NCBI RefSeq assembly: GCF_016862935.1
Contig: NZ_BONX01000012.1
Span: 1-64,000, forward strand
DNA: 64,000 nt
Origin: Plantactinospora mayteni
Lineage (GTDB): Bacteria > Actinomycetota > Actinomycetes > Mycobacteriales > Micromonosporaceae
Direction of reading: 5' to 3'
Each line of letters opens with the position of its first letter. Position 1 is the stretch's first letter. Under the pieces are notes generated by a model that saw only the letters and a program-made list of their open reading frames with translations, made no database searches and was not told the DNA's origin. Of the stretch, positions 2,260-58,959 are shown one piece after another. Position numbers and translations under genes: made by a program.

Positions 2260-2940
2260 ATGTGGGAGAAAGTCCGTCCACGTTCGGTCCGTTTCGCCCA
2301 GCTCGACCGGGTTCGACTGCGCCGGATCGCGGTCCGCTACGCCGGGCACGGTTGGCAGGTCACCCCTGGGGCGTGCCTGGCCCGGCACCGCTTCGTCTGT
2401 GGCCGGGCCGGCTGCCCGACCACCGGCTGCCATCCGGCGCTGGAGCAGTGGGAGCAGTGCGCCACCGCCGACCCGGCCCGGGTCGCCACCTGGTGGCGGC
2501 TCCGCCCGCACTCGATCCTGCTGGCCACCGGCCGCGCCTTCGACGTCCTGGAGGTACCCGCCTACCTGGGCCGGTTCGCGCTGGAGCAGGCCCGGCCCCG
2601 GCTGTTCGGCACCGTCGCCGGCCAGGTCCGCGGGCCGGTCGCCGCCACACCGGGCGGCCGGTGGATGTTCCTGGTACGCCCCGGCGAGCCACTCCGGCCC
2701 GAACTGGAGCACAGCCTCTACGTGGTCCGGCACGGCTCCGGCTCGTGGATTCCGGCCCCACCGACCCGGTTGCCGGAGGGTACGGTGCGCTGGGTGGTGT
2801 CCCCGGAGGAGACCCGCTGGCGCCTGGCCGACCCGTACGGCATCCAGGAGTTGCTGGTCGAGGCGTTGGAGGCGGTCGCGCCGGCCCTGCCCGAGCCGCT
2901 CTTCCCGGCACACCTGCCCGCCCCACGTCGAGGCTACTGA
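2260..2940 (+). CDS. prim-pol N-terminal-like protein
   Basis: A 226-residue protein resembling the N-terminal domain of bifunctional DNA primase/polymerases (D5/prim-pol superfamily). The typical features are AVRYAGHGWQVTPG near the start, a Cys-rich segment (CGRAGCPTTGCHPAL), and LLATGRAFDVLEVP where active enzymes carry their acidic metal-binding pair. Here that motif reads DVLE, so catalytic competence is doubtful. Actinomycetes carry many small stand-alone members of this family whose job is not known. The start chosen is ATG 2260, preceded by AGTAGGGGG; an upstream ATG at 2152 has no ribosome site. It is divergent from the XRE gene. Confidence 0.65.
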   Translation: MWEKVRPRSVRFAQLDRVRLRRIAVRYAGHGWQVTPGACLARHRFVCGRAGCPTTGCHPALEQWEQCATADPARVATWWRLRPHSILLATGRAFDVLEVPAYLGRFALEQARPRLFGTVAGQVRGPVAATPGGRWMFLVRPGEPLRPELEHSLYVVRHGSGSWIPAPPTRLPEGTVRWVVSPEETRWRLADPYGIQELLVEALEAVAPALPEPLFPAHLPAPRRGY

Positions 2941-3389
2941 GGTCAGGAGTCCGTCGGGTGAGGCCAGGAGCCCGTCGGGCCTGGCCGACGACGAGTCCGG
3001 GCCGCCGGGGCCCGCCGCTGCTGAGTCCGGGGCGACGGGTCCCGCCGCCTGCCGCGTCCGGGGCGTCTGGGCCCGCCGCCTGCTGGGTCCGGGGCGTCGG
3101 GTCCCGGCCCGACCGACCCGTTCGCGGGTTTCGCGGGCAGTCGTCGCCGGCCGGTCCCTGATCGACCGGATTCGCCCGCCGGGGCGTCTTCCGCCCCGTC
3201 CGGGTCCGCCGGCTCCGGTCCGGGCGGTTCGGTCGGGGCCAGCCCGGGCAGGCCCCGCACCGGCGGGCCGTGGCGACACGCGGCGGCCGGGTGCAGGGCC
3301 GGTAGCAGGGGCACCAGCAGCGTGAGAGCCGCCTCGGACCGGGTATTCCGGCGCCGGACTGGTTGACGCCTGAGGAAAGGGCCCACGCC
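2941..3389. repeat. non-coding spacer with 30-31-bp degenerate repeats
   Basis: This 449-bp spacer separates the prim-pol-like gene and the DUF3040 gene. From about 2993 to 3110 it holds almost four diverged copies of a 30-31-bp unit beginning GAGTCCGGG. A shorter duplicated phrase (AGGAGTCCGTCGGGTGAGG and a near copy) directly follows the stop codon. I see no gene with acceptable start signals. GAGGAAAGG at 3372-3380 is the ribosome site of the next gene. Confidence 0.6.
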
Positions 3390-3644
3390 ATGCTCAGCAA
3401 AGAGGATCAGCGCCGATTTGACGAGATCACGCACCAGCTCCGTTTGACCGACCCCGAATTCGTCGCCCGGCTGGGCGACCGGGGCAAACTGCGCCGCGCT
3501 CGGCTGATACTCGTGTTGACCTTCGTACTCTGGGCCACCGTGCCGGCCCTGGTCGTACTCGGCGGCTGGCTGGCCGTCGCGATCGCCCCGGCGGTCCTGG
3601 TCGCGGCCACGCTGTTGATGTGGCAGGCCCGGCGGAACCGGTGA
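3390..3644 (+). CDS. DUF3040 family membrane protein
   Basis: An 84-residue protein of the actinobacterial DUF3040 family. The hallmark N-terminus MLSKEDQRRFDEITHQL is followed by a conserved acidic/polar stretch (TDPEFVARLGD) and two predicted membrane helices between roughly residues 40 and 80. It is expected in the cytoplasmic membrane with the N-terminus inside; its function is not established. ATG 3390 is chosen because GAGGAAAGG lies about ten bases upstream and because family members start with MLS; the in-frame start at 3363 lacks support. A 6-bp GC stem (3645-3660) immediately follows the stop and may end transcription. Confidence 0.8.
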   Translation: MLSKEDQRRFDEITHQLRLTDPEFVARLGDRGKLRRARLILVLTFVLWATVPALVVLGGWLAVAIAPAVLVAATLLMWQARRNR

Positions 3645-3865: not shown

Positions 3866-4834
3866 TCAGTCCGGGTCGCGGTCGCCGAACCGGGTGTAGG
3901 CGCGGCGGAGCCGCTCGGCCAGGCCGGGCCCGCCGATCGCCGCACCAGGTGGACCGAGCTGGCGCAGTACCAGCTCCGGTTCGGTCGCCAGGGTGGGCGC
4001 GCGGGCCGGCAGCGGCACCGGGGCGACCCAGAACCGGTCGAGCATCCCGGCCAGCGGCTCGGCGGCCAGGTCGGCGAGGGCCAGCCCGGCACCGACCGGC
4101 GGCGGGTCGACCGCGCCCGGACGGACCGGCGTCGGCAGCTCGGCGTCATCGGCGTCGGACGCACCGGTACGCGCCCGACGCCGGCCGCCCGACCGACGGG
4201 TACGCCCCGGACGGGTGTCCCGCTCGGCCTCCCCGCCGCCGGGGTCGGCACCGCGCAGCGCCCGCAGCCGGGCCAGTAACCGGTCGCGGTCCCGCCCCCG
4301 CCAGTGCAGCAGTTGGAACGGATCCGCGTCGAACGCCTCGGCGAGCAGATAGAAGGTCGCGGCGAGGTGCTTGCACGGCACGGCGAAGTCGGGGCAGTCG
4401 CAGCGCTGCCTGAGCTGGTCGACGCCGGCCGGGAAGAGCGGCGCGCCCGCCTCGGCGAAGACCGCCTCCAACTCCGGCGGTACGTCGCCGGCCAGCAGCC
4501 GCGCACTGAACAGTGCCTGCGCGGCGAGCAGCGTCTCCAGCCGGGTCCAGACCCGCTCGGCCAACGGCCGGAACCGGATCGACACCTGGTACGGCTCCGG
4601 CCGGGAACCCTGGACCACGGCGGTCACCTCGCCCGGTGCCACGTCGAGCGAGACCACCTGCCCGGCCCGGGCGTACGAGCGGCCACGGGTGAGCCGGGTG
4701 CCGAGCGCGAACGACTCGAGTACGTCGAGGAAGCGGCGGGACCACCAGGATCGCCCGATCGCCCCCCGGGCGGTACGCGCCCGCAGTCCACCGTCGACCT
4801 TGCGCGGCCGGCCGTACTCGGCGAAGTCGGTCAC
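3866..4834 (-). CDS. SWIM zinc-finger protein
   Basis: A 322-residue protein with a SWIM zinc finger. CDCPDFAVPCKHLAATFYLL, around residues 140-160, supplies the CxC...CxH ligands. The N-terminus (TDFAEYGRPRKVDGG, RSWWSRRFLDVLE) is typical of the SWIM partner of actinobacterial SNF2 helicases. The C-terminal part is rich in Arg/Gly/Asp linkers. GTG 4834 overlaps the TGA of the SNF2 gene in a GTGA, so the two are translationally coupled; the longer in-frame ORF (to 5077) lies inside the helicase gene and is rejected. It probably acts with the helicase in DNA binding or remodelling, but no substrate is known for the pair. Confidence 0.85.
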   Translation of the reverse strand: MTDFAEYGRPRKVDGGLRARTARGAIGRSWWSRRFLDVLESFALGTRLTRGRSYARAGQVVSLDVAPGEVTAVVQGSRPEPYQVSIRFRPLAERVWTRLETLLAAQALFSARLLAGDVPPELEAVFAEAGAPLFPAGVDQLRQRCDCPDFAVPCKHLAATFYLLAEAFDADPFQLLHWRGRDRDRLLARLRALRGADPGGGEAERDTRPGRTRRSGGRRRARTGASDADDAELPTPVRPGAVDPPPVGAGLALADLAAEPLAGMLDRFWVAPVPLPARAPTLATEPELVLRQLGPPGAAIGGPGLAERLRRAYTRFGDRDPD

Positions 4835-7800
4835 TCGACCACCGCCCCGCTCTCCAGGGCGAAGAGTTGGCGCAGTTCCGAGGTGGACAGCTCGGTGAGC
4901 CACTGCTCGCCGCTGCCGACGATCCGCGCGGCCAGTCCCCGCTTCTCGGCGATCATCGCGGCCACCTTCTCCTCCACGGTGCCGGCGCAGACGAACTTGC
5001 GTACCTGCACGGCGCGGCGTTGACCGATCCGAAACGCCCGGTCGGTGGCCTGGTCCTCGACCGCCGGATTCCACCACCGGTCGACGTGGACGACGTGGTT
5101 GGCGGCGGTCAGGGTCAGCCCGGTCCCGCCGGCCTTCAGGGAGAGGACGAAGAGCGCCGGGCCGGCCGAGCCGTCCCCGGCGGAGCCCTGGAACCGGGCC
5201 ACCATCTCGTCCCGCTCCGCCTTGCCGACGCCGCCGTGCAGGTAGAGCACCTCGCGGCCGAACCGGGCGGCGAGGTGGGCCCGGAGCATCCCGCCGAACT
5301 CGGCGTACTGGCTGAAGATCAGCGCCTTCTCGCCGGCCGCCAGTACCTCGTCGAGGATCTCCTCCAGCCGGGCCAGCTTGCCGGAGCGGCCGGGCAGCGC
5401 GGAGCCGTCCCGGAGTACCTGGGCGGGGTGGTTGCAGACCTGTTTGAGCCGGGTCATGGTGGCCAGCACCAGCCCGCGCCGCTCGATGCCGTCGCTGGAC
5501 TCGATCCTGGCCATCATGTCGTCGACCACCGCCTGGTAGAGGGACGCCTGCTCCCGGGTGAGGTTGCAGAGCACCTCCATCTCCAGCTTCTCCGGCAGGT
5601 CGGTGATGATCGACCGGTCGGTCTTCACCCGGCGCAGCACGAACGGGCCGGTGATCCGGCGCAACCGGGCCGCCGCCTCGTCGTCGCCGTGCCGCTCGAC
5701 CGGCTCGGCGTACCGCTTCTTGAAGGCGGTCGCGGTGCCGAGCAGGCCGGGATTGGCGAACTCCATGATCGACCAGAGGTCGGCGAGGCGGTTCTCCACC
5801 GGCGTACCGGTGACCGCCACCCGGTGCCGGGCGGGCAGCGACCGGACCGCGGCGGCCTGCCGGGTCGCGGCGTTCTTGATCGACTGTGCCTCGTCCACCA
5901 CGATCCGGTGCCAGTCCACCTCGGCCAGCGCGGCGGCGTCCCGGGCCGCCAGCGAATAGGTGGTGAGCACCAGGTCCGCGTCCCGGACCGCCGCGGCGAA
6001 CTTCGCCCCGCGCGGCCGTTCCGCACCATGGTGTACGTGTACCCGCAGCTCGGGCGCGAACCGGGCCGCCTCGCGCTGCCAGTTGCCGACCAGCGACATC
6101 GGGCAGACCAGCAGGGTCGGACCGGCCTCCGGCGGGTCACCGGCGAGCAGTGCGAGCATCATGATGGTCTTGCCCAGCCCCATGTCGTCGGCGAGGATGC
6201 CGCCGAGACCGAGCGACTGGAGAAACGCCAGCCAGGCCAGCCCGCGCTGCTGGTACGGCCGCAGCGTGCCCCGGAACGACTCCGGCGCCTCCCGGGGCGT
6301 GAGGTGCCGCTCGGCCTGGCCGGCGAGCAGGTCCCCGAGCGGGCCGTCGGCGCTCACCCCGAGCACCGGCAGCGCCTCCGGATCGTCCTGTGCGGCCAGT
6401 CCCAGCCGGAGCAGGTCGCCCACGGTCAGCTCGCCACCCGCCCGGAGCAGCTTGAGCCCGGCGGCGAGCCGCTTCGCGTCCAGCTCCACCCACTGACCGC
6501 GGAGCCGGACCAGCGGTGTCTTCAGCTTGGCCAGCGCCCGCAGCTCGGCGGCGGAGAGCGGCTGGTCGCCGAGCGCCAGCTCCCACTCGTAGTCGACCAG
6601 CGCATCCATTCCCAGCGCGCTGCGCGAGGCCACCGCCCCCGGCGCGGTACGCGTCTTGGCCTGCAACCGGGCCCCGAGCCGGGCACCCGGCCGCTGCCAC
6701 CACGAGGGGAGCAGCACGCCGAACCCGGCGGCGTGCAGTACCGGCGCACCGTCCCGGAGGAACCGGTGTGCTCCCTCGGTGTCCAGCTCCAACGCCTCCG
6801 GCGCGGCTGTCCGAAGCGCGTCGTCCAGCTCCGGCCAGAGCCGGCTCGCCCGGCCCAGCTCGGTCAGCAGGGTCTCCTGCGGGGCGGCCAGGTGCCGGGC
6901 CAGCGCCCGCAGGTCACCCCGGGCCGCCCAGATCCGGTCCGCCCCGACCACCAGGCTCGGCTCGTCGGCCGCCTGGAGCGCGAACTCCACCCGCCAGCGC
7001 TGCTCCACCCCGGCCAGCCCGTCCACCTCAACCAGCCCCGCCGCCTCGCCCGTCGTCATGTCGTTCTCGACCGGCGTCACGTCGATCTCGGGCGGCGTCA
7101 TGTCGATCTCGAGCGGTGCGGGTGGCTCGACGAGCCGGAAGCAGGCGCGTACCGGGCTGCCGGCGGCATCCCGCTGCCAGGCGCGCAGTTCGCGGTCCAG
7201 TCCGGCCAGTGCCTCCGGTGCCGCGGTGAAGTCCCGCTGCCGCCCGGTCAGCGCCCGCAGCCAGCCCCGTACGGCGGCGTCGGCGGCGCCGGCCCGACCC
7301 GCCCCGATCAGCCGTACGCCCTCCAGAGCCGTCCGGGCGGCGGCGTCGGTGAGCGCGTCCAGGGCATCCGCGACGGTGGCCGCCGCCGAGCCGTTCACTC
7401 CGGAAGCGTCACCCGGGCGGACCGCTCCCACTCCGGCGACGCCGTCCGGTCGAATGGTGGCGGTCGGTCGGGTGGTGACCGAACCGCCGGTTTCGGTCGG
7501 CCGGGTGGTGACCGAACCACTGGTGTCGCTCGGCCGAGTGGTGGCCGAGCCGCCGGTTTGGGCCAATGCGGCGGCCCCGGCTGCGGGCGGGTCGAGCGCG
7601 GCGCGGGCCGCTGGCGGCAGCGCCATGGTCAACGCGCGGGCCCAGCCGGCATCGGACCCGGTGAGCAGCGGGCGCCACACCGCGCGGGCCGAGCCGCCCG
7701 GGCCAGTCGAGCCGGCGGAGAAGGCCGTCGCCGACGGGCTGGCCGAGACGGACCCGGCCGGCCGGCGGGCGGAGCCGCGTGGGCTGCGGGAGCCGGCCGG

Positions 7801-51660: not shown

Positions 51661-52125
51661 ATGAGACAGGCACGAGGGACCAGACTCGGCCATCGCCGAG
51701 TTTGGTGGCGCCTCTGGCGGTATTGCTGGTGTGGACACCGGTGGATCTGCCCCGACTCGGATCCCGGCGTGTGCTTCTACTACCCCCAGCGGGGTAGTAG
51801 AAGCACACGATCGGCGGGTGCCGACGCCGAGAGTGCGTCCCGGACGGGCGCCGAGTTCCGGCGGGCGGTTCGGGTCGCCACGGTTGACGCCAGGATCGCG
51901 CGGCAGGCACGGGCCGGGCACGAGGACGCGCCACCCCCGCCGCCACCACCCCCGCCCTCGCCGCCGGAGCAGCCGCAGCGTCCGTGGATCGATCTCCCCG
52001 TCTCCCGCAATGCGGGCCGGTATGACGGGTGGAACGGGCCGACCCGGGCGCACCTGGCCCACGGCCGGGCCGGCGGCCTGACTCCGGCCCAGCAGCACCG
52101 AGCCCGGCACGCCGAGCGGGTGTAA
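51661..52125 (+). CDS. small hypothetical protein interrupted by a perfect hairpin
   Basis: A 154-residue ORF. Start ATG 51661 has GGAGGG eight bases upstream. The N-terminus (TRLGHRRVWWRLWRYCWCGHRWICPDS) is Trp/Cys/Arg-rich, a pattern seen in small actinomycete proteins encoded near XRE/DUF397 pairs; a Pro run and SRNAGRYDGWNGPTRAHLAHGRAGGLTPAQQ follow near the end. Between the two parts an 18-bp inverted repeat with a 4-nt loop (51769-51808) is read in frame as FYYPQRGSRST. The C-terminal PTRA...GLTPAQQ tail also recurs in other actinomycete proteins. Function unknown. Confidence 0.5.
   Translation: MRQARGTRLGHRRVWWRLWRYCWCGHRWICPDSDPGVCFYYPQRGSRSTRSAGADAESASRTGAEFRRAVRVATVDARIARQARAGHEDAPPPPPPPPPSPPEQPQRPWIDLPVSRNAGRYDGWNGPTRAHLAHGRAGGLTPAQQHRARHAERV
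51769..51808. repeat. 18-bp perfect inverted repeat with 4-nt loop inside a coding frame
   Basis: GTGTGCTTCTACTACCCC and its exact complement flank CAGC. A stem this long and perfect in a coding region is unlikely by chance and would strongly fold in the transcript. Confidence 0.92.
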
Positions 52126-52246: not shown

Positions 52247-53221
52247 TCACTCCTCCGGTGGCGGGGCGGGCGGGTCGAGGAACAGGGCCAGCCGGTCGAC
52301 ACTGATCGCGCTGGTCAGCAGCCGCTCCTTGCGGTTGCCGAGCAACCGGCGGGTCCAGTCGACGAAGCCGCCGTCGCCGAGTTCGACCCGCTCGCCGTCT
52401 AGTACCGCGCTGATCTTGAAGCACCATCCGGTGTAGTAGCCCCGGCCGCGGGAGCGGTCCGGGTCGTCGCGTACCAGGATCTTCGGGTGGTCGGCCAGGG
52501 CGGCCCGGGCCGCCTCGGCGATCGGTACCGCCGCCGGGTCCAGCACGGTCAGGGCGACCTCGATCGTCGGCACCCCGGCCGACTCCAGCGCCGCGCAGAG
52601 GATCCGCAACTGCTCGCCACAACTGCGCCGCTCAAACGCCAGACTCCCGGTGTCCCGGCCGGCGGTGACCAGGGCGAGGAGGCTGAAGTGGGCGAACCGG
52701 CCCGCCCCGGCGAACCGCTGGGCCCGGATCACCCGTTGCAGGGTCGCCAGTCGCACCGGCGGGGCCGACCGGCCGTTCCGGGCGAGCAGTTCCCGGCGCC
52801 GGACCGCCGCCTCCAGCGCCAGCCCGTTGGTCGGATCGGCCGCCACCTCACTGCCCCGGACCGTGGCGAGCACGTTGTTCTGGTTCACCCCGGCGACCAC
52901 GGAGTGGGTGCCCAGCGGTGCGACCGGGGCGAGGGTAAGCAGTTCGTACCGCTCCGGTACGGCGGAGAGCAGCAGGTCCTCGGCCCGGCGCAGCCGGCGG
53001 AACCCGGCCTGGGCCGGTGCGACGAAACGGTTCTCCGTGTACCGGCGCAGTACGTCGGCCGGGCTCAGGAAGCCCGCCCGGGTCCGGAACGCGGCCAGCA
53101 GCAGCGTGACCAGATCCGAACCGGACAGCCGTACGCCCAGGGTGTTCAGGATTTCGGCGCCGCCGGCCTGGCGCAGCACCCGGGCCAGCGCGGCCCCCTC
53201 GACCGTGTCAGGATCCGCCAT
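52247..53221 (-). CDS. class II aminoacyl-tRNA-synthetase-like (HisRS-like) protein
   Basis: A 324-residue protein. Segments match class II synthetases: APLGTHSVVAGVNQNNVLAT with GSEVAADPTNGLALEAA looks like motif 2, and RGRGYYTGWCFKIS resembles the HisRS RGLDYYTG motif, followed by GDGGFVDW and a final helix SAISVDRLAL like motif 3. It lacks an anticodon-binding domain and is shorter than HisRS (about 420), more like HisZ. The real function is unknown; a charging, regulatory (HisZ-like) or amino-acid-ligase role is possible. It lies 75 bp downstream of the second glucosidase-like gene and could belong to the same operon. Confidence 0.55.
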   Translation of the reverse strand: MADPDTVEGAALARVLRQAGGAEILNTLGVRLSGSDLVTLLLAAFRTRAGFLSPADVLRRYTENRFVAPAQAGFRRLRRAEDLLLSAVPERYELLTLAPVAPLGTHSVVAGVNQNNVLATVRGSEVAADPTNGLALEAAVRRRELLARNGRSAPPVRLATLQRVIRAQRFAGAGRFAHFSLLALVTAGRDTGSLAFERRSCGEQLRILCAALESAGVPTIEVALTVLDPAAVPIAEAARAALADHPKILVRDDPDRSRGRGYYTGWCFKISAVLDGERVELGDGGFVDWTRRLLGNRKERLLTSAISVDRLALFLDPPAPPPEE

Positions 53222-53296
53222 CGCATATCGCTATCACGGCGGATCGCCGTCCACCACCCGGATTTCCATTCGAACCGTGCCGCGCACCGCGACACG

Positions 53297-55336
53297 TCAC
53301 TCGGGTTCCAGGTGCACCCGGCCCCGGCCGAACGCGTCGGTCCGGCCCCACCGCCCCGGAATGCCGACCAACTCGATCCGGCCGAGCCGCTCCGGAATCG
53401 CCGGGTCGATCGTCAGGTGGTCCTGGTGCGGGCGCAGGCCGAGCAGGGTACGGAGCAGCACCAGCGTGGTCCCCGCCGACGAGCAGTGTGGACTGCACGC
53501 CCGGGGGTACTGCACCGGATACTTGGTACGCCGTCGGTCGTAACCGGCGAACGCCTCCGGCATCCGGCCGCCGAAATACCCGGACGCCTCGACCATCGCC
53601 ACCGCCAGCCGGGCCGCCTGCTCGGCGAAGCCGTACCGGCGCAGTCCCAGCGCGATGAGCGAGTTGTCCGACGGCCAGATCGCGCCGGTGTGGTAGCCGA
53701 CTGGGTTGTAAAATGCCTGGTCACGGGCGAGCGTCCGGATTCCCCAGCCGGAGAAGAGATGCCGGTCGAGCAGCACCTCGGCCACCTGCTCCGCACGGGA
53801 GTCGTCCACGATCCCGCTCCAGAGCAGGTGGCCCATGTTCGAGGCGAGGGCGTCGACCTGGCCGCCCTCGGCGTCGAGCGCGAGCGCGTAGTAGCCCTGG
53901 TCGGCGATCCAGAAGTCCCGGTTGAACCGGTCGCGCAGGTCGGCCGCCTCCTGCTCCAGCCGGTCCGCGTACGCCGGGTCGTTCCAGAAGGTACGGGCCA
54001 GCCGCGCGCCCCGGACCTTCGCGTCGTACGCGTAGCCCTGTAGTTCGCAGGTGGCCCGGGGGTTGCCCGGCAGCCGACCGTCGGCGTACGTGACGGAGTT
54101 CCAGGAGTCCTTCCAGCCCTGGTTCTCCAACCCGCTGGGACTGCGGCGCTCGTACCAGACGTAGCCGTCGTCCATCAGATTGCCGTACGTGTCGATCCAG
54201 GCGAGCGCCGACCGGGCCTCGTACTCCAGCAGCCGCACCGTCTCGGCGTCCCCGGTCCACCGCTCGTACTCATCGAGCAGCACCACGAAGAGCGGCGTGC
54301 AGTCCGCCGCGCCGTAGTACGTGGTGTACGGGCTGTCCCCGAAGCCGCCCGGCTCGCCGTACCGGATCTCGTGCATGATCTTGCCCGGCTCCTCGTCCCG
54401 GAAGTCGTCGACCCGGCCACCCTGGAGCAGGGCGAGCACCCACAGCGCGCTGCGGGCGATCTGCGGTATGAACGGCAGGGTCTGGAAGCCGGTGACCAGG
54501 CTGTGCCGGCCGAACAGGGTCATATACCAGGGCAGCCCGGTCGCCATCAGCTTCACCTGGCTGGTCAGCCCGATGTACTGCAAGGCGGCGAGGTCGACCA
54601 GGCTCCGCTGGTACGCGTCGTCCAGCGTCTCGGAGTCACAGGTGAGCTTCGGGGCCTGGTCCAGCCATTCGCGCAGCTCGCGCCGTTTCTCCGGCCAGGC
54701 CTCCTGGTAGCCGCGCAGGTTCTCCCGGACGTCCCGGCCGCCCGCACCCTGGATCGTGCCGATCGCCCGGAGGGTCGTGGACCACCTCCCGTGCGCGCCG
54801 AGTTCGATCCGGAAGGTGAGGCCGTCGGCGTCGATCTCGGCCGGCTCGCTGCTGGTCACGATCGTCTCGGCGACGTGCCGGTGCCGCTCGTGGCACAGCC
54901 GCAACCGGCCCGGTTCGACGAGCTTCGCCGTCCGCCCCGGCAGCGACCGGGATTCCCGGGCGTCGAACACGTCCGCGAAATCGGAGTCGATCTCCATCCG
55001 CAGGGTCAGCACCACCGGCTCGTCCCGGTGGTTGAGCACGGTCAACTCTTCCTCGAACGCCCCGGCGAGCGACCGCTGCCGGATCACCGAGGTCTTCGCG
55101 TCGACGTAGTGGGTCGGCTCGCCCGGCACCAGGAAGAACCGGCACTCGAAGTACTGGAGGTCGTCGATGGAGAGTTCGTGCAGCCGCTCGCCGTTGATGG
55201 TGAGCACCCACCGGGAGAGGAAGCGGGTGTCCCAGGCGAAGAGCCCGGACGGATAGTTCGGCGACGGCTCGACGTCGCCGGTGGAGTCGCTGAGCATGAA
55301 CGTGTTGCCGTCCAGGATGCTGACCAGGTCATTCAC
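53297..55336 (-). CDS. amylo-alpha-1,6-glucosidase / glycogen-debranching-like enzyme (copy B)
   Basis: A 679-residue protein. The N-terminal part (residues about 1-200) is the GDE_N-type beta domain, starting LVSILDGNTFMLSDSTGDV and including GLFAWDTRFLSRW and FFLVPGEPTHYVDAK. The C-terminal (alpha/alpha)6 barrel (about 245-640) has YMTLFGRHSL, ENQGWKDSWNSV, QGYAYDAK and TGAIWPSDNSLI, which hold the likely acidic catalytic residues (GH63/GH133-like). It should cleave alpha-1,6 or similar glucosidic bonds in the cytosol. Its GTG overlaps the SCP2 gene stop (GTGA). A close paralogue lies 530 bp upstream with the same partner. Confidence 0.83.
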   Translation of the reverse strand: MNDLVSILDGNTFMLSDSTGDVEPSPNYPSGLFAWDTRFLSRWVLTINGERLHELSIDDLQYFECRFFLVPGEPTHYVDAKTSVIRQRSLAGAFEEELTVLNHRDEPVVLTLRMEIDSDFADVFDARESRSLPGRTAKLVEPGRLRLCHERHRHVAETIVTSSEPAEIDADGLTFRIELGAHGRWSTTLRAIGTIQGAGGRDVRENLRGYQEAWPEKRRELREWLDQAPKLTCDSETLDDAYQRSLVDLAALQYIGLTSQVKLMATGLPWYMTLFGRHSLVTGFQTLPFIPQIARSALWVLALLQGGRVDDFRDEEPGKIMHEIRYGEPGGFGDSPYTTYYGAADCTPLFVVLLDEYERWTGDAETVRLLEYEARSALAWIDTYGNLMDDGYVWYERRSPSGLENQGWKDSWNSVTYADGRLPGNPRATCELQGYAYDAKVRGARLARTFWNDPAYADRLEQEAADLRDRFNRDFWIADQGYYALALDAEGGQVDALASNMGHLLWSGIVDDSRAEQVAEVLLDRHLFSGWGIRTLARDQAFYNPVGYHTGAIWPSDNSLIALGLRRYGFAEQAARLAVAMVEASGYFGGRMPEAFAGYDRRRTKYPVQYPRACSPHCSSAGTTLVLLRTLLGLRPHQDHLTIDPAIPERLGRIELVGIPGRWGRTDAFGRGRVHLEPE

Positions 55337-55740
55337 GGCCGACGCTCCCGTTCCCCGGCGACCCGGCGGCCGGCGAACCGCTCCCGGATCCGCTCCCGGG
55401 GGTCCCGGGTGCCCGGCGGCGAGGGAAAGGCGCGGCGGAAGACCAGCAGCAGCGGCAGGTTGCCGCGCACGGTCAGATCGTTCCGGTTGTACGCGGCGAG
55501 CACCTGCGCCTCACCGGTGGCGAGCTTGTCGAACAACTCCTTCTCGGTGGCGACCACGCAGTCCGCCTCCCGCTTCTCACGCGACACCAGCACGTTGCCC
55601 TGGTTGACCGCGACGAACCAGTGTTCGACCTCGCCGTCCCGGTCGAGGTCGAACCGCAGCCTTCCCCTGGCCTTGGCCGGCAGCAGGTCCGGCCCGTGCT
55701 CCTCGATCCGGCTGAAGAACTCGGCGGTCGGATCCGCCAT
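55333..55740 (-). CDS. SCP2 sterol-binding-domain protein (copy B)
   Basis: A 135-residue protein with an SCP2-like lipid-binding fold: DPTAEFFSRIEEHGPDLLPAKARGRLRFDLDRDGEVEHWFVAVNQGNV, then ADCVVATEKELFDKLATGEAQVLAAYNRNDLTVRGNLPLLL. Such domains hold hydrophobic ligands. The C-terminal tail is Arg/Pro-rich. It is translationally coupled to the glucosidase-like gene downstream by a GTGA overlap. Why a lipid-binding protein pairs with a debranching enzyme is unknown. A second SCP2 gene of the same kind lies upstream in the other module. Confidence 0.8.
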   Translation of the reverse strand: MADPTAEFFSRIEEHGPDLLPAKARGRLRFDLDRDGEVEHWFVAVNQGNVLVSREKREADCVVATEKELFDKLATGEAQVLAAYNRNDLTVRGNLPLLLVFRRAFPSPPGTRDPRERIRERFAGRRVAGERERRP

Positions 55741-55867
55741 CGGGTGACGCCTCCCTTCCCGACTCGTCCGGCGTCCCGCACACCCACTGGTGCTGCCTGC
55801 GGGTACCCGTAACCGACGTTCTGCCCGAGCCGTCGCGGTCTTCGACCTCGACCGGGCCGACGAACCG

Positions 55868-57934
55868 TCACTCCATCAGGCCCGGCGGCGTCCGGCTGTG
55901 CTCCGCCCGGCCCCGGCCGAACGCGTCGATCAGGCCCCATCGGCCCGGGATGTCCAGCAGTTCCATCCGGCCCATCCCCACCGGCAGGGCCGGGTCGACC
56001 ACCAGGTGCTCGCCGTGCGGATCCAGGCCCAGCAGGGTCCGGATCAGCAGCATCGGCGTACCGGTCGACCAGGCCTGCGGGCTACAGGCCGTCGGGTACT
56101 GCACCGGATACTTCGTCAGTGCCCGGTCGTAACCGGCGAACGCCTCCGGGAGCCGGCCGCCGAAGTACCGCCCCGCGGCGATCATCGCCTCGGCGATCTG
56201 GCCCGCCTCGTGCCGGAAGCCGTACCGGCGCAGGCCCCAGGCGATCAGCGAGTTGTCGAACGGCCAGACCGTGCCGACGTGGTAGCCGATCGGGTTGTAC
56301 CGGCCCTCCCCCTCGGCCAGGGTCCGCACCCCCCAGCCGGAGAAGAGCCGGGGCCCGAGCAGGTGCTCGGCCACCTTCCCGGCCCGGTCGTCGTCGACGA
56401 TCCCGCTCCACAACAGGTGCCCGATGTTCGAGGACAGCGCGTCCACCTGGCCGCCCTCGGTGTCCAGGGCCAGCGCGTAGTATTCCCCGTCCTCCACCCA
56501 GAAATCCCGGTTGAACCGCCGCTTCAGCTCCGCCGCCTCCCGCTCCAACCGCTCGGCGTAGACCGGGTCCTGCCAGAAGAGCCGGGCGAGCCGGGCGCCG
56601 CGCATCTTGGCGTCGTAGGCGTAGCCCTGTAGCTCGCAGGTGGCCCGGGGAAACGCCGGCAGCCGGCCGTCGGAGTACGAGATGCCGTCCCAGGAGTCCT
56701 TCCAGCACTGGTTCTCCAGGCCGTTGCGCAGGTTCCGCCGCTCGAACCAGACGTAGCCGTTGCCCATCAGGTCGCCGTACCGGTCGATCCAGTTCAGCGC
56801 GGCCCGGGCCTCGTGCTCCAGCGCCTTCACCAGCTCGGTGTCCCCGGTCCACCGCTCGTACTCGTCCAGCAGGATCACGAAGAGCGGGGTGGAGTCGGCG
56901 GAGCCGTAGTAGGGCGAGTGCGGCTGCTCCTCGAACGCCGTCGACTCGCCGTACCGGACCTCGTGCAGGATCTTCCCGGGCTCGCGTTCCCGGAAGTCGT
57001 CCAGGGTGACCCCCTGGGCCAGCGCCAGAAAGCGCAGCGTCGGCCCGGCGAGTTCCGGGGTGAACGGCAGGGACTGGAGGCAGGTGATCAGGCTGTCCCG
57101 GCCGAACATCGTCATGAACCAGGGCAGGCCGGCGGCCGGCAACGGCGGACCGGCGGTCAGTGGTGCGTACCGCAGCGCGGCCAGGTCGATCAGACTCCGC
57201 TGGTACGTCTCGGTCAGCGGCTCGCTGTCGCTGCTGAGCTTCGGCGCGCGGGCCAGCCAGGCGTCCAGGTCCTCGCGCAGTTCCTCCGGGGAACGGCTCT
57301 GGTGCCGCTGGATGCTGAGCCGGATGTCCCGACCACCGGCCCCCTCCACCAGGGTCTCCACCCGGAGCCGGGTCTGCCACTGCTGGTGCGCCCCGATCCG
57401 CAGCGCGAAGGTCACCCCGTGCCGGTCGAACTCGGCGGGCGCGGTCGAGGTGACGATCGCCTCGCGCCGGAAGGTCTCCCGCTGGTAGTAGAGCCGCAGC
57501 CGGTCCTCCTCCACCACCACCGTGGTGCCGCCGACCTTCTCCCGCACGTCCTTGATCTCGAACAGGTCGGCGAAGTCGCTCTCCACGTTCAACCGGACCG
57601 TCACCTCGACCGGCTGGTCCTCGTGGTTGAGCACGGTCAGTTCCTCGACGAAGCTGCCGCCGACCGTCCGGTGCCGGATGATCGACAGCTTGGCGTCCAC
57701 GTAGTGCGTCGGCTCGCCGGGGACCAGGAAGAACTGGGATTCGAAGTACTGGAGGTCGTCGACGGAGAGCACGTTCAGCCGGTTTCCGTCGACCGTCAGT
57801 TCCCACTTCGACAGGAACCGGGTGTCGAACGAGAAGAGCCCGGTCGGAAAGGTCGGCGACGGGTCGATGTCGCCCCGGTTGTCGCTGACCACGAAGGTGT
57901 TTCCGTCGAGGATGCTGACCAGTGGTTTCGTCAC
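55868..57934 (-). CDS. amylo-alpha-1,6-glucosidase / glycogen-debranching-like enzyme (copy A)
   Basis: A 688-residue paralogue of the 53297-55336 gene with the same two-domain layout. Shared landmarks include LVSILDGNTF, GLFSFDTRFLSKWELTVDG, FLVPGEPTHYVDAKLSI, WFMTMFGRDSLITCLQSLPF, ENQCWKDSWDGISY, GHLLWSGIVDDDRA and TVWPFDNSLI. Clear differences across the whole length mean an old duplication, so the copies may have different substrates. Its GTG start overlaps the SCP2 gene stop (GTGA). It is followed after 126 bp by the second module. Confidence 0.83.
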   Translation of the reverse strand: MTKPLVSILDGNTFVVSDNRGDIDPSPTFPTGLFSFDTRFLSKWELTVDGNRLNVLSVDDLQYFESQFFLVPGEPTHYVDAKLSIIRHRTVGGSFVEELTVLNHEDQPVEVTVRLNVESDFADLFEIKDVREKVGGTTVVVEEDRLRLYYQRETFRREAIVTSTAPAEFDRHGVTFALRIGAHQQWQTRLRVETLVEGAGGRDIRLSIQRHQSRSPEELREDLDAWLARAPKLSSDSEPLTETYQRSLIDLAALRYAPLTAGPPLPAAGLPWFMTMFGRDSLITCLQSLPFTPELAGPTLRFLALAQGVTLDDFREREPGKILHEVRYGESTAFEEQPHSPYYGSADSTPLFVILLDEYERWTGDTELVKALEHEARAALNWIDRYGDLMGNGYVWFERRNLRNGLENQCWKDSWDGISYSDGRLPAFPRATCELQGYAYDAKMRGARLARLFWQDPVYAERLEREAAELKRRFNRDFWVEDGEYYALALDTEGGQVDALSSNIGHLLWSGIVDDDRAGKVAEHLLGPRLFSGWGVRTLAEGEGRYNPIGYHVGTVWPFDNSLIAWGLRRYGFRHEAGQIAEAMIAAGRYFGGRLPEAFAGYDRALTKYPVQYPTACSPQAWSTGTPMLLIRTLLGLDPHGEHLVVDPALPVGMGRMELLDIPGRWGLIDAFGRGRAEHSRTPPGLME

Positions 57935-58302
57935 CGCTGCCCCCTCCCCCGTACCCAGTCCCGAGGTTCGTGCGCGCCGGGCGTCCCCGGCACCAGGCGG
58001 TTCAGGTAGCTGAACAGAAACAGCTTCCCCTCCACCGTGAGCCGGTTGCGCAGCAGTGCCGCGAACGGGTTCGCCTCGCCGGCGGCGATCCGGTTGAAGT
58101 ACTCGCGGTCGGTCCGGACGGTGCAGTCCGCCGCCCGGTCCGTCTGGGTGGCGCTCACGCTGCCAGCACTGAACACCAGCAGCCAGGTGTCGATGTCCGT
58201 ACCCGACTCGAGTTCGAAGCGGACCGTCCCCCGGATCTTGCCCAGCAGCGGGTCCGGGGCCCGGTGGTTGAGCGCTTCGAAGAACTCCGTGGTCGGATCC
58301 AT
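57931..58302 (-). CDS. SCP2 sterol-binding-domain protein (copy A)
   Basis: A 123-residue SCP2-like protein: DPTTEFFEALNHRAPDPLLGKIRGTVRFELESG, then DCTVRTDREYFNRIAAGEANPFAALLRNRLTVEGKLFLF. It parallels the SCP2 gene at 55333-55740 in size, order and in its GTGA overlap with a following glucosidase-like gene. It is probably the first gene of the whole leftward run, which would continue to 52247. No function is known beyond a likely lipid-binding pocket. Confidence 0.8.
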   Translation of the reverse strand: MDPTTEFFEALNHRAPDPLLGKIRGTVRFELESGTDIDTWLLVFSAGSVSATQTDRAADCTVRTDREYFNRIAAGEANPFAALLRNRLTVEGKLFLFSYLNRLVPGTPGAHEPRDWVRGRGQR

Positions 58303-58542: not shown

Positions 58543-58959
58543 TCAGTTGTTCGGTTCATCGGCGCTGATGTCGGCGAGCACGGACTGCGGCTCCCGCTCG
58601 ACCGCGAGGTCGCCGAGGGAGACCAACCCGATCAGTCGGCCCTCCTCGACCACCGGCAACCGCCGTACCCCGTACGTCCGCATCAGGTCGGCGGCGGCGA
58701 CCGCGTCGTCGTACTGCGTCACGGTGATGACGTCCTGGGTGAGGATCTCGCTCAGCGTGGCACTCGACGGGTTCAACTGTTCGGCCACCCCGCGTACCGT
58801 GATGTCGCGGTCGGTGACGATACCTATCACGTCGTCCCCGTTGGTCACGATCACGTCGCCGATGGCGCTGTCCCGCATCTCCTGGGCGGCAGCGGTGAGC
58901 GTGTCGCCGCCGTCCATGGTCACCAAGCGGGTCGTCATGAACTCTCCGACGGTCGTCAT
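58543..58959 (-). CDS. CBS-domain pair protein
   Basis: A 138-residue protein with two CBS domains: MTTVGEFMTTRLVTMDGGDTLT...GIVTDRDITVRG, and LTQDVITVTQYDDAVAAADLMRTYGVRRLPVVEEG...GLVSLGDLA. CBS pairs bind adenosine nucleotides and act as energy or ligand sensors. Many actinobacteria carry stand-alone pairs induced in hypoxia or stress. ATG 58959 is used. It is the last gene upstream of the SCP2 module in the same direction but is 240 bp away, so probably separate. Confidence 0.88.
   Translation of the reverse strand: MTTVGEFMTTRLVTMDGGDTLTAAAQEMRDSAIGDVIVTNGDDVIGIVTDRDITVRGVAEQLNPSSATLSEILTQDVITVTQYDDAVAAADLMRTYGVRRLPVVEEGRLIGLVSLGDLAVEREPQSVLADISADEPNN

Follow-up and report, generated by a model that had tools for sequence, protein, structure and literature searches.

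The closest described relatives of the two halves of the gene pair reported here are the archaeal-type glycogen-debranching enzymes (GDEs) and the SCP2/non-specific lipid-transfer proteins. The pair, an SCP2-domain gene directly followed by a gene for a GDE-like enzyme, occurs twice in succession (SCP2a with GDEa, SCP2b with GDEb) in the window, meaning the whole 64,000-nucleotide stretch of Plantactinospora mayteni that was analysed (assembly GCF_016862935.1, contig NZ_BONX01000012.1, positions 1 to 64,000). The SCP2-GDE pair is a real, conserved unit of known domains, undescribed as far as was searched: a preliminary description of this DNA had suspected an undescribed system, and no account of the pair was found in the open-licence literature, although print beyond it may hold one. 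Also new is the loss of functional enzyme residues in a substantial share of the copies within the family Micromonosporaceae, and in none of the relatives unlinked to SCP2.

Comparison with described systems

On the enzyme side, the nearest solved structure is the amylo-alpha-1,6-glucosidase of Thermococcus gammatolerans STB12 (Protein Data Bank (PDB) entry 7vma), an archaeal-type GDE that resembles GDEa in both of its parts and shares the GRD, WKDS and LPE motifs with it by alignment. Unlike the SCP2-GDE unit, however, the 620-residue chain of 7vma has no SCP2 part, and its WPHD motif is WPFD in GDEa and WPSD in GDEb, the latter also having GRH in place of GRD. Both components of the archaeal-type class, GDE_N_bis and an (alpha/alpha)6 glucosidase domain, are present here, the fold having been seen on a fused relative (L104). 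The glucosidase domain of eukaryotic GDEs (glycoside hydrolase family GH133, as in Candida glabrata GDE, CgGDE) is alike in three functional residues, by motif rather than by alignment, but eukaryotic GDEs have a GH13 glucanotransferase domain and GDEa and GDEb are without one. The GH63 enzyme YgjK of Escherichia coli and the GH94 and GH116 enzymes share a fold class with L104 according to Foldseek, yet with approximately 10-14% identity over aligned columns. On the carrier side, the SCP2 domains align along most of their length with SCP2/non-specific lipid-transfer proteins (1c44, 2c0l and 4jgx), from which those of the window differ by a conserved C-terminal Pro/Arg-rich tail. Alkylsulfatases, a different enzyme class, offer a precedent in their C-terminal domain, which is SCP2-like and assists in the hydrolysis of a lipid-like substrate.

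The two modules in the window

All genes of the block lie on the minus strand, with coordinates given in the window, and those of the two modules are as follows:

57931 to 58302, minus strand: SCP2a, SCP2-domain protein of 123 residues (PF02036, 49.6 bits; cut-off 21.3)
57931 to 57934, minus strand: overlap of the SCP2a stop with the GDEa start, GTGA on the coding strand
55868 to 57934, minus strand: GDEa, GDE_N_bis plus (alpha/alpha)6 glucosidase-like enzyme of 688 residues, with D280, D413 and E597 kept and F559
55333 to 55740, minus strand: SCP2b, second SCP2-domain protein, 135 residues (PF02036, 39.6 bits; cut-off 21.3)
55333 to 55336, minus strand: overlap of the SCP2b stop with the GDEb start, GTGA on the coding strand
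53297 to 55336, minus strand: GDEb, second enzyme-like protein, 679 residues, with D280 replaced by His and Ser at 559, D413 and E597 kept

GDEa and GDEb are 63% identical and match GDE_N_bis (PF14742; 172.7 and 159.6 bits, cut-off 22.1) and MGH1-like_GH (PF22422; 50.3 and 48.9 bits, cut-off 27), while GDE_C (PF06202, cut-off 21) is matched by GDEa at 29.6 bits and slightly missed by GDEb at 20.5. No Pfam match to a GH13 alpha-amylase barrel, as found in bacterial GlgX/TreX, was obtained for either enzyme at E<=0.1, nor at that threshold any NCBIfam family for SCP2a, SCP2b, GDEa or the orphan gene downstream of GDEb. On visual inspection, the window proteins showed no evident secretion signal. 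The preliminary description had already read the region as two such modules with GTGA overlaps, and these genes are confirmed by Pfam, by a gene-like codon-position G+C, and by ratios of non-synonymous to synonymous substitution rates (dN/dS; Nei-Gojobori, between genomes of Plantactinospora) of 0.17-0.52 across SCP2a, GDEa, SCP2b, GDEb and the orphan (SCP2a 0.17-0.35, SCP2b 0.30-0.52, GDEb 0.21-0.42). The alternative that the SCP2 genes are non-coding, raised in the same description, was rejected on the latter two measures.

In the host genome (9.84 Mb), GDE_N_bis is matched seven times, counting a fragment of 49 positions, and SCP2 five times. These matches include a third SCP2-GDE pair, located on contig C66. 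No SCP2 lies in the 19 kb surrounding each of three full-size GDE_N_bis proteins, and the SCP2 matches on C30 and C75 share their contigs with no GDE_N_bis match. A short GDE_N_bis match in a 93-residue open frame (G000:C65:32618-32761, L012) is perhaps a gene remnant.

Conservation of the SCP2-GDE pair

Public genomes were scanned with an alignment of seven GDEs, and the best 80 of at least 578 confirmed relatives were taken as a nearest-relative set, which is biased to close kin. SCP2 was directly upstream of GDE in all 80 of these loci, comprising 85 pairs (in one, L111, GDE is in two pieces), and the junctions consisted of 33 GTGA, 23 ATGA and 25 TGATG overlaps, three longer overlaps and one fusion. 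Taking the start nearest to the stop, all 84 unfused pairs therefore have overlapping stop and start, which, along with several fusions, bears out the earlier proposal that the pair is made together.

Within the family, 81 genomes were sampled, with thresholds of E<=1e-290 for GDE and E<=1e-15 for SCP2. Such GDEs were present in 36 genomes (95 matches, one to six copies per genome) and such SCP2s in 35 (98 matches). SCP2 lies directly upstream of 90 of the 95 GDEs, 88 with a listed SCP2 and two with a weaker one (L239, L242). Of the remaining five, one (L241) has a GT4-like gene in between, one (L240) lies 140 bp from a contig end, and three (L238, L243, L308) have none. In the other direction, ten SCP2s at first appeared unpaired, of which two precede a frameshifted GDE (L244, L245), one precedes a GDE remnant (L246), six have next to them a GDE truncated at a contig end (L322-L326), and the last is that of L241 with its GT4-like gene. 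The GT4-like glycosyltransferase, named by reading, is located at 2413-3606 (minus strand) in L241, and at 4616-5797 (plus strand) beside the pair in L239.

Outside the family the unit is rare: such SCP2s (E<=1e-14) were found in four of 394 genomes of the class, three of these being from this family, and a phylum sample of 296 genomes added the adjacent pair in two more genomes from other families, one with GDE in two frames. The preliminary description had staked its proposal on conserved co-occurrence across genera, and the pair is found in Micromonospora, Plantactinospora, Verrucosispora, Geodermatophilus and a Blastococcus metagenome-assembled genome, the last two representing named genera outside Micromonosporaceae. 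A local or chance adjacency was rejected, given the 80 nearest loci, the family sample and these other genera.

The two halves are also found as single proteins. Nine of the 100 family copies examined are SCP2-GDE fusions in a single open frame with SCP2 at the N-terminus, and the fused label requires five changes on a tree of 107 rows, meaning that fusion arose repeatedly or was reversed. A further N-terminal fusion occurs in Micromonospora globispora (831 residues from the SCP2 start), and a C-terminal GDE-SCP2 fusion of 803 residues in a genome of another family (G119). The near-exclusive pairing within the family, the overlaps and the repeated fusion make a joint function of SCP2 and GDE very likely.

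Origin of the linked clade and the two modules

A tree of 141 GDEs was inferred from the loci at hand after removal of scores <400 bits, stretches <1800 bases and duplicate loci, using a quick method with approximate likelihood-ratio (SH-aLRT) supports and a midpoint root, and it contains some long branches. The 92 SCP2-linked and 49 unlinked GDEs fall on opposite sides of one branch (support 98), where unlinked means, for many of the 49, that there is no SCP2 within approximately 1.5 kb on the side seen. The C-terminal fusion of G119 is the first to branch among the linked GDEs.

Both GDEa and GDEb are placed inside a wider fork of 24 rows (support 81). GDEa clusters with copies of its genus and one of another genus (L271; support 96), and next with three more intact copies (support 81), whereas GDEb clusters with the GDEb copies of its own genus (support 100). 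The modules had initially been taken for a tandem duplication, but as a recent event in Plantactinospora this was rejected, since GDEa is nearer to the copy from another genus than to GDEb. Genome G524 differs in this respect: its tandem copies group as sisters (support 100), which fits a recent duplication in that case. A first tree paired GDEb with a fused, triple-altered copy (L087; support 98), a pairing that is unsure because L087 has a long branch and was placed elsewhere in the second tree.

Loss of active-site residues

In CgGDE, glucosidase activity is reported to be lost in the mutants D1241A, E1492A and D1078N (PMC4837477). Within the window, D413 and E597 are present in both GDEa and GDEb and are presumed, from sequence, to be the general acid and general base, respectively. 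The Asp of the GRD motif, D280, which by motif binds the leaving glucosyl group, is kept in GDEa and is His in GDEb, as in all five Plantactinospora GDEb copies examined. We take D1241, E1492 and D1078 of CgGDE to correspond to D413, E597 and D280 of GDEa, on the basis of motifs and of the alignment of GDEa to 7vma, the step to CgGDE itself being by motif rather than by direct alignment.

All three residues are kept in every one of the 49 unlinked relatives. Among 95 full-length family copies (five contig-cut copies were dropped), all three are kept in 65 and at least one is lost in 30, a difference with a Fisher p of 6.6e-7 that is descriptive, given that kinship is ignored and a phylum-wide set is compared with one family. 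D413 is replaced in 16 copies (by E, N, G, C or S), D280 in 12 (by Q, H or E) and E597 in 10 (by Q, G, A or S). Losses were fewer in the first set of linked copies, a closer one with 92 members, at four for 280, five for 413 and one for 597. Altered copies comprise seven of the nine fused, three of the five without adjacent SCP2, and 20 of the 81 upstream-paired. On the 107-row tree the losses require three, seven and five changes at positions 280, 413 and 597, of which two, four and two, respectively, are forced by well-supported branches.

The sole copy is intact in all 10 single-copy genomes, altered copies occur only in multi-copy genomes (16 of 26), and an intact copy is retained in 35 of 36 genomes, the exception being G508. 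The altered copies that were testable, namely GDEb and three fused copies lacking the acid residue (dN/dS 0.10-0.20), are under purifying selection. Separately, head-to-head double SCP2-GDE pairs were observed in four Micromonospora loci (L094, L103, L113, L151), in each of which one partner has D413 replaced by Glu.

A further difference extends across the linked clade. Position 559, the His of the WPHD motif, is His in all 49 unlinked relatives and F, Y, S, A, W or C in all 95 family copies, with Phe in 77 of them including GDEa, and Ser in GDEb; in the first set only the C-terminal fusion kept His559, which the other 91 of 92 linked copies lacked. Of the 56 columns invariant in the unlinked relatives, 559 varies most in the family, with 413, 280 and 597 ranking 5th, 6th and 8th. 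Other columns that often vary are 491, 267, 324, 490 and 325, the first three of these more so than 413, 280 and 597. The replacement of His559 suggests that the SCP2-linked clade as a whole probably has an altered pocket.

Structural evidence

The profile of the SCP2 half (A2) matched mammalian SCP2/non-specific lipid-transfer proteins first among solved structures (best E 1.5e-10), followed by the fatty acid-binding SCP2 4jgx, and its conserved positions follow the SCP2 pattern, hydrophobic positions included, with the Pro/Arg-rich tail at the C-terminal end. Matches of SCP2a and SCP2b to the alkylsulfatase C-terminal family PF14864 were sub-threshold (18.1 and 19.9 bits; cut-off 27). Divergence is faster in SCP2 (median identity 34%) than in GDE (61%).

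By sequence, the best PDB match of GDEa is 7vma (E 1.5e-107), covering the N-terminal part and the (alpha/alpha)6 domain. An AlphaFold model of L104 had a mean predicted local distance difference test score (pLDDT) of 71 and a predicted template modelling score (pTM) of 0.76. Its enzyme half was good for much of its length, with some loops below pLDDT 50, and Foldseek placed 7vma first in the PDB (TM 0.85 by target length, 30% identity), with GH63 YgjK and GH94/GH116 enzymes next. Residues 1-138, the SCP2 half, were mostly below pLDDT 50, probably because the underlying alignment (A3) seems to have set SCP2-only rows against the enzyme part, its conserved columns starting at F150.

Neighbouring genes and the orphan

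The pairs of the window belong to a larger block with the conserved order CBS-SCP2a-GDEa-SCP2b-GDEb-orphan, which extends the five genes of the preliminary description by the CBS gene. The outer genes are:

58543 to 58959, minus strand: CBS-domain protein of 138 residues, first gene of the conserved block (Pfam CBS, 86.2 bits)
52247 to 53221, minus strand: orphan of 324 residues, weakly like histidyl-tRNA synthetase (HisRS) in its C-terminal third

The whole block is also present in three other genomes of the genus in the sample, and from SCP2a onwards, owing to a contig end, in Plantactinospora alkalitolerans, a protein of which is 87% identical to GDEa.

Among 85 context loci, in which neighbours were named from reading their sequences, two Micromonospora locus types recur. 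The first has an aspartate-semialdehyde-dehydrogenase-like gene, often PNPOx-like and CBS genes, the pair, and a PlsC-like acyltransferase; the second has nitrobindin-like, YgfZ-like and DsrE-like neighbours. CBS relatives were found in 24 of the 85 loci and PlsC-like genes in 29, mostly of one Micromonospora locus type (e.g. L086 10888-11637), with the PlsC-like gene being the next called gene after GDE on the same strand in 15 loci, at gaps of 24 to 1167 bp. The window corresponds to the first type with the second module and orphan added downstream, and has no PlsC-like gene among those called there. The preliminary description had put forward a glycolipid, a maltosyl/trehalosyl substrate or storage-glycan signalling, each of which is a candidate. 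No trehalose or glycogen genes were recognised among the clustered neighbours read, no search having been aimed at them, and the neighbour genes pointed to no pathway.

The orphan had been reported as a class-II-synthetase-like gene following GDEb by 75 bp, a distance that stands. Its likeness to HisRS is more doubtful, scoring 14.8 bits against PF13393, below the cut-off of 25, with the window orphan being the sole match at E<=1 among the four relatives scanned; its profile reached E 0.045 against HisRS structures, and the aligned region resembles HisRS. Motifs of the HisRS type are RG..YYTG and an ERL-like end. The orphan follows GDEb in four genomes of the genus and in P. alkalitolerans, and in two other genera the 17-18 kb retrieved with its relatives (L084 8092-9063, L085 15793-16824) contain neither GDE nor A2-type SCP2. 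At 51770-51807, in the interval separating the orphan from a gene for a DUF5753 helix-turn-helix protein, reading of the sequence showed an inverted repeat of 17 bp spaced by 4 bp.

Possible functions

The reading preferred here, at a probability of roughly 0.42, is that SCP2 and GDE would form a cytosolic two-part unit acting on a lipid-linked or otherwise hydrophobic glucoside, and that altered paralogues would have a sensing or partner role. Made together, and possibly forming a physical complex, the pair would consist of a GDE half that is an inverting exo-alpha-glucosidase-type (alpha/alpha)6 protein, kin of the archaeal-type amylo-alpha-1,6-glucosidases, and an SCP2 half that would present to the enzyme what it holds, either a hydrophobic ligand or the substrate's hydrophobic end. 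Plain glycogen would then be a less plausible substrate than a lipid-linked glucan or a glucoside whose aglycone is a lipid or otherwise hydrophobic. The lipid-linked function is suggested by the SCP2 fold, from which lipid binding is likewise predicted, the change from His to an aromatic residue at 559, and the PlsC-like neighbour. Following duplication, some pairs would have lost catalytic or substrate-binding residues while remaining under purifying selection; their persistence under selection and their occurrence in multi-copy genomes suggest that such copies probably share the ligand and act as sensors, carriers or partners without catalysis, and GDEb may be one of them.

Several observations weigh against this reading. 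The three copies without SCP2, all from one genus, have E597Q, and two genomes of the phylum sample (G398, G339) have an A2-type SCP2 (72 and 65 bits) with an internal stop and no GDE within 13-14 kb. The pairwise distances of SCP2 and GDE speak for the unit by their correlation (r 0.64 over 105 pairs; none of 999 permutations), but this is largely a matter of shared descent. SCP2-type domains are not all lipid binders, and with the SCP2 half of L104 unmodelled no SCP2-enzyme interface is supported. PlsC-like genes stand beside one of the two Micromonospora locus types only, the other having housekeeping-like neighbours, and GDEb, with both presumed catalytic residues, may simply have another specificity.

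The alternative that survives best, though we consider it unlikely, is ordinary alpha-glucan debranching, with GDEa trimming single alpha-1,6 glucosyl stubs from glycogen or oligosaccharides and SCP2 as a lipid-free stabilising or regulatory subunit. That GDEa keeps the presumed catalytic residues and has its nearest solved structure in an amylo-alpha-1,6-glucosidase is consistent with such a role; however, the clade has replaced a His invariant in the unlinked relatives, the three full-size SCP2-less GDE_N_bis proteins of the host genome could do that job, and no glycogen gene was recognised among the neighbours read, in which none was specifically searched for. A further proposal, which appears improbable, is that the family serves mainly in sensing and drifts towards glycan-binding pseudoenzymes that report alpha-glucoside and lipid together, possibly via the upstream CBS protein. 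Losses in nearly a third of family copies through several separate events, the low dN/dS of the three fused acid-less copies and the CBS gene upstream in one locus type point in this direction, but 65 of 95 copies and all single copies are intact, and catalysis thus looks like the basic function. Similarly improbable is an extended form of the preferred two-part unit, in which SCP2 would deliver a lipid-linked alpha-glucoside, a growing set of dead paralogues would measure the same molecule, and CBS and, in Plantactinospora, the orphan would read out the state. A role in tailoring or detoxifying glycosylated specialised metabolites that these actinomycetes make is less probable again: the range of copy number and the divergent copies are as in accessory metabolism, and two loci have a GT4-like gene within or next to the pair, but the two locus types recur across Micromonospora species with the same housekeeping-like neighbours. 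Finally, a shared operon without functional link, for which it can be said that adjacency alone is common in bacteria and that two phylum genomes have A2-type SCP2 with no GDE nearby, is very improbable given near-exclusive pairing in both directions within the family, overlap in every unfused pair, and repeated fusions.

The SCP2-GDE pair joins a fold of the lipid-carrier type and an enzyme of the glucosidase type in a single unit, and the label of debranching enzyme derived from Pfam may be wrong for the SCP2-linked clade. Within a single enzyme family, the residue losses form a natural series in which the question of how glycosidases turn into sensors can be addressed. If the preferred two-part unit is true, Micromonosporaceae would be expected to contain lipid-linked glucosides or to trim glucans under the control of a lipid.

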